DNA of 64,000 nucleotides from Magnetovibrio sp. GTDB taxonomy: Bacteria > Pseudomonadota > Alphaproteobacteria > Rhodospirillales > Casp-alpha2. Numbering within the stretch: position 1 is the first letter of the stretch; each line of letters starts with the position of its first letter. A program made the translations under genes and the position numbers. The stretch is taken from the NCBI GenBank assembly GCA_002690705.1, contig NZFO01000002.1, positions 1 through 64,000 on the forward strand. Reading direction: 5' to 3'. A model generated the notes under the pieces. It ran no database searches. It was not told the DNA's origin and saw only the letters and a program-made list of their open reading frames with translations. Below, piece after piece: positions 13,119 to 47,087 of the stretch.

Positions 13119-13642
13119 TAGTCCTGTTGCTCCCAAAAAGCTAGGGTGGCAGCGCCACATGCTGTATATTATGTCGATTGATAAAAACGCGTCGATTCCA
13201 CTCAGTTTGTCTGGCACCCGTTCAGCACTCAAAATTGTCGATAATCGGTTCCCCCAACTTGCTCGACTGAGGTTAGTATTGCGCGTGGTCCTGAAACCAT
13301 GGATGTCAGGTTGTCAAGACTGCCTCAGTGCTGTGGGTCGGGCACAGGTAAAACCCACAAAAATTAAACTTCTCAGCTACTCTATATTCTATCTCATTTA
13401 GAGTTAGATTTTCCAGTTTTGAAATATATTGATCCGGTTTTTTATTTATTAAGAAAGTGACTCATTCGACCCTTGTTGCATCATTGTCTTACGTCACACG
13501 ACTATTTAAGCTACGGCCCGTTGGTGCTGTAGTTTTTCGCTTTAACCTGTGAGAGGGAATTGTCCCAGTTCCCCGGATGTAATAATGTATTAGCGGTGTT
13601 GGTTGCTTTATTAAGGTTTTGGATTTTCGGCAGGAGAAAGTA
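13119..13642. other. 524-base divergent intergenic region
   Basis: Lies between the divergent GST and cupin genes, and so carries both promoters. No convincing gene was seen; the plus-strand frame at 13159-13401 has no recognisable content and no ribosome site. Confidence 0.4.
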
Positions 13643-14146
13643 ATGAATTATACCTTGGATGAATTCGCGACCGATTGCAGAATGGCATTGCAAGCTAATC
13701 ACGGCCCAGAAGGTTATGAAGCTGTGCGCCAACACGTCATGCGCGCTCTGACTGACGAGTTATTTGTCGCTACATATTTGGGAGAAGACAATACAATTCA
13801 ACGTCAGATTCTTTATGAGGACTCTGAACTAGGATTTTGCATATGCGCCCACGTTTATGATGAGGCGAAGGAGGGTTCCCCTCACGATCATGGTCCGACT
13901 TGGGCTATATATGGCCAAGCTATTGGGGAAACTAAAATGACTGACTGGGAGATTGTCTCGCCGCCGGAGGGTGATGTGCCGGGGAAAGTCAGACTGGTGC
14001 GCAGTTACACGCTGATAGCAGGTGATGCCCATGTCTACAAACCGGGTGATATTCATGCGCCTTTAAGAGATGGCCCAACCCGATTGATCCGGATAGAGGG
14101 CCAAAATACAGATAAAGTTAAACGTACGCTCTTAGAGGCAGTTTAA
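13643..14146 (+). CDS. cupin-type dioxygenase-like protein
   Basis: A 167-residue single-domain cupin. Metal ligands are likely the histidines in 'SPHDHGPTWAIYGQAIGETK' and the later 'GDIHAPLRDG', a three-His arrangement like cysteine or 3-mercaptopropionate dioxygenases. The long acidic tail and 'RLIRIEGQNTDKVKR' are seen in small cupins annotated only generically. Start at ATG 13643 follows a CAGGAG ribosome site; eight upstream codons remain open. Stands alone, convergent with the MBL-fold gene. Thiol dioxygenase activity is inferred; the substrate is unknown. Confidence 0.75.
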   Translation: MNYTLDEFATDCRMALQANHGPEGYEAVRQHVMRALTDELFVATYLGEDNTIQRQILYEDSELGFCICAHVYDEAKEGSPHDHGPTWAIYGQAIGETKMTDWEIVSPPEGDVPGKVRLVRSYTLIAGDAHVYKPGDIHAPLRDGPTRLIRIEGQNTDKVKRTLLEAV

Positions 14147-14180: not shown

Positions 14181-14921
14181 CTAAATCTCTACGGTCATAT
14201 GATCGCGGGCAGTCTCTTCAGATATCTTGTCGACCATAGGCAACATTTCGCTGCTCATATGCGTAAGAATGATGCGCTTTGCGCCAAAGTCATCCCAATG
14301 GCATTTAATGTCTGGGTAATTGAGATGAAATTTTATAGGTTTAGCAAAAGAGTAGCATTCTAGTATTAAGAGATCGGCATTCTTGCCAAGTGCAGACATG
14401 TGTTTGTTATATGCACTGTCCCCCGTGTAGGAAATAATTTTCTCGTCTACTTCACATCTTACGGAGGTCGGGTTCGTCCCTCCTGTATGCACGGCCGGAA
14501 ACGGCGTAACTGTTACCAAGCCCACTTGGTTGGGTCTCATAATTTCCATTTCAATATATTGCAGATCGAATTTTGGAGACATTGTGTTCATTCCCGGAAA
14601 CAAAGCCTCACACATATTTTTTAAGCGTTTTTCCAACTCGCGTGGCCCAGCCACAATCAGAGGTTTAGTGCGTTTCGCCCCCAGCATGGCGTCCATCAGC
14701 ATGAATGGAATGCCCGCGCAATGATCCCCATGAATGTGCGTCAGAACGATTGCATCAATCTCGTTATGAGCGATGCCAAGTTTATTCAGGGAAATGAGCG
14801 AGGATGCTCCGAAGTCAATAACGAAATTGAAACCGGGGGAACGGACGAAAAAACACGTTTGGAAACGTCCACCCGACCCAAATGCGTCCCCTGAGCCAAC
14901 AAATGTTACGCTGACTGTGAT
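14181..14921 (-). CDS. MBL-fold metallohydrolase (RNase Z-like) with apparent AUC start
   Basis: A metallo-beta-lactamase-fold hydrolase of about 246 residues. Reading the minus strand from 14921 gives 'ITVSVTFVGSGDAFGSGGRF' and then the metal motif 'VLTHIHGDHCAG' (HxHxDH), followed by 'YTGDSAYN' and 'IILTHMSSE', so the fold is complete. The frame is closed upstream by TGA and contains no ATG, GTG or TTG before the metal motif. An AGGAG sits seven bases before ATC at 14919-14921, exactly where relatives start. The next ATG (14702) lies after the HxHxDH motif, so initiation there would remove the active site. Either AUC is used, or the start has been mutated and the gene is weakly expressed. 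Cytoplasmic; substrate unknown. Confidence 0.75.
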   Translation of the reverse strand: MTVSVTFVGSGDAFGSGGRFQTCFFVRSPGFNFVIDFGASSLISLNKLGIAHNEIDAIVLTHIHGDHCAGIPFMLMDAMLGAKRTKPLIVAGPRELEKRLKNMCEALFPGMNTMSPKFDLQYIEMEIMRPNQVGLVTVTPFPAVHTGGTNPTSVRCEVDEKIISYTGDSAYNKHMSALGKNADLLILECYSFAKPIKFHLNYPDIKCHWDDFGAKRIILTHMSSEMLPMVDKISEETARDHMTVEI

Positions 14922-15211
14922 TTGCTGTCTCCTGTTTCTCTTAAAATTAGAACGTGGTCATTTTATTCCACCTGTTGAGAGATATACCTCAGCCATTTGT
15001 CCTGCCCTAATTTATATTAACGTCGCAAATAACTGCTCGCGAGACGCGCGTGGTTACATATAGCTTTTCCTAATTAATAAAGTCATTGTACGTCCAAATC
15101 ACCAGTCGTCATCAACAAACACGTTAGCTATAGTTTGGATTTCTGGGATTAAAAAACATTAATACAAACATACCCGTTTTTTTACCTAGCCCAAAATAGG
15201 TATGCTTCAAT
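14922..15211. other. 290-base gap upstream of the MBL-fold gene
   Basis: AT-rich minus-strand spacer between msrB and the MBL-fold gene. I see no gene in it. Confidence 0.3.
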
Positions 15212-15613
15212 TTAACTGCCGTGAGGGGGGAGCAAGTCTAGGGAGGCTGAATTCATACAATACCTGAGTCCAGTTGGGTCTGGGCCATCAGGAAATACGT
15301 GACCTAAGTGGGAACCACATTTCGCACATATAACTTCGGTCCGACGCATAAAAAAACTATCATCTACCTCCTCAATAACAGCATTTTTGTCGATTGAAGA
15401 GTAGAAGCTCGGCCATCCAGTGCCCGAATCGAACTTGGTCTCTGAATCGAATAAAGGATTGCCACAGCAGACACAAACGTAGGTGCCACGGGCAGTGCAT
15501 TTATCGTATTTACCAGTGTAGGCACGTTCTGTTCCTTTCTGACGGCAAACCCTAAATTGTTCTGCTGTAAGTTGTTCACGCCATTCGGTCTCGGTCTTGA
15601 TGATCATGTCCAT
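15212..15613 (-). CDS. msrB: peptide-methionine (R)-S-oxide reductase
   Basis: MsrB reduces methionine-R-sulfoxide in proteins, repairing oxidative damage. The 133-residue protein has the two zinc CxxC pairs ('CVCCGNPLF' and '[17 protein letters not shown]'), the signature 'SGTGWPSFY', and the catalytic Cys in '[11 protein letters not shown]'. Start chosen at ATG 15613, which follows GGAGGAGTAGAG; seven upstream codons are open. Monocistronic by appearance; no msrA nearby. Confidence 0.95.
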
Positions 15614-15755
15614 CTCTACTCCTCCTATCGACACCGATAACGATTTAAATAAGTTCCTAAGATAAAAATTTTATTGCATAGAGTCATGGCTTGGTCACCG
15701 CCTATTTTCGAAGTATGCCAGTGAAGTTTATTGCAATGTGCTGAATTAACGATTT

Positions 15756-46606: not shown

Positions 46607-46920
46607 TTAAGTCATTGGTAAGTAGAGGCTAAAACATGCACCGACAATGTCCCCAGAATTATCAGTTTGATTTGAAGCAAAAATTTCACCACCGTGGGCC
46701 TCTATAATCTGACAAGAAATACTCAAGCCTAAGCCTGAGTGGGTGCCAAATTCCCTCCCCCTGGTCGTTGCGAATAAATTCGTTCGAAGATTGAGTCTTC
46801 CCTACCAAAAAGTGCTGCTTCCCCGTCCGAATAGGTGTTTACTGAGTAGCCTTCATCCTCAAGTGTGGCAGGAAGCGAGACTAAGATGTTCTGGTCGTGA
46901 TTAACTAAAGCAATTTTAAT
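46607..46920 (-). pseudogene. fused remnant of chvI (N-terminal) and chvG (C-terminal)
   Basis: Minus-strand reading gives 'KIALVNHDQNILVSLPATLE' and 'DEGYSVNTYSDGEAALFG', which is the receiver-domain start of a ChvI-like response regulator, with the usual DDD acids changed to NHD. It then runs straight into 'EDSIFERIYSQRPGG', a histidine-kinase ATPase motif, then (after a one-base frame change in the G-rich run at 46753-46761) 'REFGTHSGLGLSISCQIIEA' and 'HGGEIFASN', ending at TAA 46607. That is the C-terminus of ChvG. The two genes have been joined by an internal deletion. No start codon is left. The place, just upstream of hprK, is where chvI-chvG sits in other alphaproteobacteria. Confidence 0.85.
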
Positions 46921-47087
46921 AAAAAATTCGTAGCTTTACTTATACCGCCAATGTGGCAGAAATATAGCGTGATTATGTTTAAATTTTCCAGATCGGTCCG
47001 AAATTATATTTATGAAAGCAATTGTGTTGATATCTTCAGCTATTCCTTACAAAGTTTTATCTCCCCCAATCTGCTTGAAAGGTGACG

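Follow-up and report, generated by a model that had tools for sequence, protein, structure and literature searches.

The window (the whole 64,000-nt stretch of DNA analysed here) carries on its minus strand a gene for an MBL-fold hydrolase, which lacks a canonical start codon at the position where its relatives begin (Table 1). The gene is present in a single copy in the genome, a 3.03-Mb draft in 21 contigs that is 96.5% complete. Read directly, the frame is open from the ATC at 14921–14919 to the stop at 14181. The first ATG, GTG or TTG within it is the ATG at 14702–14700, which encodes residue 74 and lies downstream of the HxHxDH motif. The first-pass annotation had described the upstream closure by TGA and the lack of a canonical start before the motif, and both were seen again. 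Its warning that automatic annotation would start at 14702 and lose the active site also holds, the ORF expected from that codon being 173 residues long without HxHxDH. The start region shows no special RNA structure (fold z-score 0). The possibility that the N-terminus extends upstream of the ATC, directly or through a frameshift, was considered and rejected; there is no upstream conservation among relatives. A mini-ORF (ATG ACC ACG TTC TAA, encoding MTTF; 14947–14961, minus strand) overlaps the in-frame TGA and stops 13 nt before the AGGAG; it is probably a chance occurrence.

Table 1. Features of the MBL-fold gene and its surroundings (positions in the window).
Feature	Position	Strand	Remarks
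CaiB CoA-transferase	from 19856	same as MBL gene	
Acyl-CoA dehydrogenase	from 18610	same as MBL gene	
ThDP enzyme	from 17384	same as MBL gene	
msrB	15212..15634	(-)	upstream of MBL gene; 290-bp gap to ATC
In-frame TGA	14958..14960	(-)	upstream closure of MBL frame; read from sequence
Shine-Dalgarno-like AGGAG	14929..14933	(-)	7-nt spacer to ATC
ATC at homologous start position	14919..14921	(-)	ATG in 22/22 closer orthologs
MBL-fold hydrolase gene	14181..14921	(-)	246 codons, ATC to stop; Pfam match, full-length orthologs, pLDDT 93
HIHGDH metal-binding motif	14721..14738	(-)	residues 62–67; invariant alignment columns
173-aa ORF without HxHxDH	14181..14702	(-)	expected from automatic caller; first canonical start
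Conserved convergent gene	13619..14146	(+)	69% identical in a same-genus genome

The protein scores 68 bits against Pfam Lactamase_B_2 (gathering cutoff 27), with the metal-ligand motifs present. The invariant metal ligands (H62, H64, D66, H67, H145, D168, and H221) are all kept. Together with orthologs that align from end to end, this establishes that the frame from 14921 encodes a complete metallo-hydrolase including HxHxDH, as originally claimed. An AlphaFold2 model built from 26 aligned sequences has a mean pLDDT of 93.3 and a pTM of 0.92; the closest solved folds are the Bacillus anthracis ELAC homologue (1zkp), Bacillus subtilis YhfI, and Apyc1. Scores against the curated models fall below the cutoffs for RNase Z (88.6 against 293), for cyclic-nucleotide phosphodiesterase (NF041851; 60.8 against 400), and for Apyc1 (37.8 against 50). 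The protein is likely to be a phosphodiesterase-type hydrolase, by prediction, and we left its substrate unassigned because all three scores are below cutoff.

The MBL gene ends a run of genes that share its strand. The gene convergent to it contains an HDHG stretch, which suggests a cupin; searches of Pfam and NCBIfam gave no match. In many, more distant relatives (L004–L009, L016, L017, and L042), the MBL gene lies 10–45 bp behind a gene for a CaiB/BaiF family III CoA-transferase, and this arrangement suggests a possible role linked to the pathway of that CoA-transferase. In both same-genus genomes (L031 and L032), the order is msrB, DUF6272 (SiaB-like), SiaC, class III cyclase, and MBL gene. 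No such cassette separates msrB from the MBL gene in the window, just the 290-bp gap, in which no trace of the module is left. SiaB is absent from this genome and present in 5 of the 48 family genomes. Since SiaB is rare in the family and the MBL gene adjoins CaiB in more distant orthologs, gain of the cassette in those two genomes is more probable than its loss here. Loss of the upstream module as the cause of the ATC was rejected on the same two observations. A dedicated promoter for the MBL gene in the gap was likewise rejected, as promoter-like hits are at the level of shuffled sequence.

Relics of other genes were noted. At 46607–46932 (minus strand) of the window, about 40 residues resembling the start of a response regulator are joined, with a frameshift, to the last part of a histidine kinase (HATPase_c, 2e-5); the relic adjoins HPr kinase and, by its position, is probably a deleted ChvI-ChvG pair. 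On contig C5 (about 13,966–14,092), a 73-codon frame holds an N-terminal fragment of glutaminase (PF04960, 53 bits). Single N bases, which may mark ambiguous assembly positions, are scattered in contigs C7, C8, C4, and others.

The start codon was compared with that of relatives drawn from the family genomes and from GTDB contigs (MAGs mostly labelled Rhodospirillaceae or Rhodospirillales), a check proposed at the outset. In every one of the 22 distinct closer orthologs (51–79% identity), an ATG falls exactly on the position of the ATC without a gap. This places the AGGAG seven nucleotides before the homologous N-terminus, where the first-pass annotation had put it. Both same-genus genomes are among the 22; their start region reads MSVSVTFVGTGDAF, as compared to ITVSVTFVGSGDAF here. 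In more distant homologs (about 40–46% identity), the ATG or GTG start lies two codons further downstream. A near-cognate start is thus not kept among the 22 closer orthologs, and since all of them have ATG, the ATC is a substitution specific to this genome. The initial reading had been AUC initiation, with a start mutation as its alternative; the ATG of the relatives favours the alternative and disfavours a long-established AUC start.

The AGGAG is a 5-nt match to the anti-Shine-Dalgarno complement with a 7-nt spacer and is stronger than the upstream sequence of both same-genus orthologs. Shine-Dalgarno-like matches of at least 5 nt with a spacer of 4–12 nt precede 4.7% of 5,097 internal in-frame ATC codons, which is the chance level, and matches of that length precede about 18% of the first-start positions of predicted genes. 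Given these frequencies, the motif by itself is modest evidence for the start position. The position is fixed by homology to the aligned orthologs, and the AGGAG supports it modestly. It is also what a freshly mutated gene would retain.

Other non-canonical starts were sought in 1.26 of the 3.03 Mb of the genome. A dicodon model was run over this portion, which holds about 900 gene-like ORFs 150 codons or longer; apart from infC, no other convincing full-length gene was coding over a long stretch ahead of its first canonical start. The other hits that were inspected are short fragments, frames that are probably antisense, and genes whose normal start lies slightly further in. In the homology census, 40 places were testable at the start, and only the MBL gene and MoaB were flagged. 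MoaB was rejected, as it has a normal ATG. Systematic use of AUC starts in this genome is supported by neither census. The infC gene (contig C18, about 103,870–104,391) starts with ATC directly after a TAG stop (TAG ATC TCC AGA CGA CCC TTT), with an AGGAG 8 nt upstream; the infC genes of relatives that were read have ATA or ATC at the corresponding place. IF3 is essential in bacteria. As infC starts with ATC behind an AGGAG and its product is essential, AUC very probably works as an initiator in this organism.

Selection was assessed with a branch codon model from which the start codon was excluded; saturation at synonymous sites makes its estimates soft. With this reservation, omega is 0.018 on this lineage and 0.060 elsewhere (2ΔlnL 5.1). 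When a terminal neutral period occupying 1, 2, or 5% of the branch is introduced, the fit worsens by 1.3, 2.6, or 6.2 log units, respectively. For codons 2–73 alone, the model is without power. Relaxed selection or further damage was not found in the MBL gene; omega is low, the frame is intact, and the ligands are kept. One more change, W171Y, affects a site that is otherwise invariant, and it was rejected as a sign of relaxation because other orthologs carry as many such changes. A long-standing loss of function is unlikely. From the strong purifying selection on the lineage, the change to ATC would be either very recent or tolerated. Of the marks of a recent pseudogene by start loss, the gene shows the start lost relative to the relatives and neither relaxed selection nor further damage.

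The ATC can be read as weak AUC translation, as a gene just switched off, or as an error of assembly, the last being less likely. We consider it probable that it represents a recent start-down mutation from ATG to ATC, the gene being otherwise intact and still initiated at AUC to a residual, IF3-sensitive degree. A conserved, normally ATG-started gene would have undergone a recent single-base change in this lineage, which would have left the Shine-Dalgarno sequence and the whole reading frame intact. The AUC would support fMet-tRNA initiation inefficiently and be rejected more frequently by IF3, so that translation would be strongly reduced; it would probably not be abolished, because AUC behind an AGGAG very probably works at infC. 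The result would be an allele with low expression or a gene that has taken the first step towards loss. We infer that the change is a real mutation, that it reduces expression, and that full-length protein continues to be made in some amount. A start mutation is favoured by the ATG in all 22 closer orthologs, the intact frame and metal-ligand positions, the lack of relaxed constraint before the change, and the absence of any other such gene but infC in 1.26 Mb. The gene relics elsewhere in the genome (the two-component remnant in the window, the N-terminal glutaminase fragment on C5, and, on C4, a cyclase fragment that contains stops) were also counted in its favour, as were the ATC start of infC and the lowered but persisting translation of Listeria rsbW start mutants (PMC13068326). 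Against it, there is no sign of decay beyond the start, and equal or stronger constraint would also be expected of a working AUC start.

A genuine, maintained AUC start, giving low-level translation coupled to IF3 availability as for infC and Streptomyces sigR, is possible but carries clearly less weight. The infC gene of the same genome has ATC behind an AGGAG, the AGGAG of the MBL gene sits at 7 nt and exceeds what precedes the same-genus orthologs, the branch shows no relaxation, and the ATC start of Listeria rnhC and the GTC start of sigR are precedents. However, every close relative has ATG, and there is no sign of a regulatory need. Moreover, reconstructed switches from AUG to a near-cognate start are rare (about 3 in 61,358, a count in which annotation bias hides AUC; PMC5622118). 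AUC initiation at this gene thus gains from infC and from the lack of relaxed constraint and loses by the ATG of the relatives. It seems doubtful that in this lineage AUC has become the regular start of a gene beyond infC, here a hydrolase gene, with a strong Shine-Dalgarno sequence and IF3 control shared with infC. An error of consensus or assembly, in which the true base at 14919 would give ATG, is unlikely. One wrong base would account for everything, the lack of relaxation included, and single N bases are scattered through other contigs of this draft genome. Contig C20, however, is free of N over 119,687 bases, the neighbouring genes are intact, and an error arising at random would be unlikely to fall in a start codon. 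It is very improbable that only the shorter protein from 14702 is made. No canonical start precedes that codon in the frame, but its product would be without HxHxDH and the first four β-strands of the fold, no ortholog starts there, and residues 2–73 are conserved better than the rest of the gene.

Near-cognate starts and start-codon down-mutations are already known, and the MBL gene adds an example: a clean change from ATG to ATC at the start of an intact gene, in a genome with an AUC-started infC. Should it be translated, it would lengthen a short list of genes that start with AUC; should it not be, it has been caught at the first step of loss. Homologous N-termini should be checked before the first ATG, GTG, or TTG is taken, which here would give the truncated protein without its active site. 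The protein shares its fold, HxHxDH, and a similar length with the YhfI / RNase Z / Apyc1 group (1zkp, 6kns, and 7u2r) but is about 20% identical to its members and below the curated cutoffs. In Listeria monocytogenes rsbW, changes of the ATG start to ATA or ATT lower translation and do not abolish it (PMC13068326). The MBL gene resembles this case as a single-base change of ATG to a near-cognate codon with the gene intact. It also resembles Listeria rnhC, which has an ATC start outside infC (PMC13068326). Start-codon changes of this kind are rare, though not without precedent. The two Listeria cases were measured by reporter or start mapping, whereas the MBL case is known from sequence alone. 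Streptomyces sigR, with a GTC start repressed by IF3 (PMC5472188), is likewise a case outside infC of a non-canonical start that annotation had missed; the codon differs, and IF3 repression has been shown there, whereas regulation of the MBL gene is hypothetical. The near-cognate start of infC (ATT in Escherichia coli, ATC in Streptomyces) serves IF3 autoregulation (PMC5472188) and is conserved across the family, whereas that of the MBL gene is found in one genome only. In both genes, AUC stands behind a good Shine-Dalgarno sequence, and the infC of this same genome has the two together.
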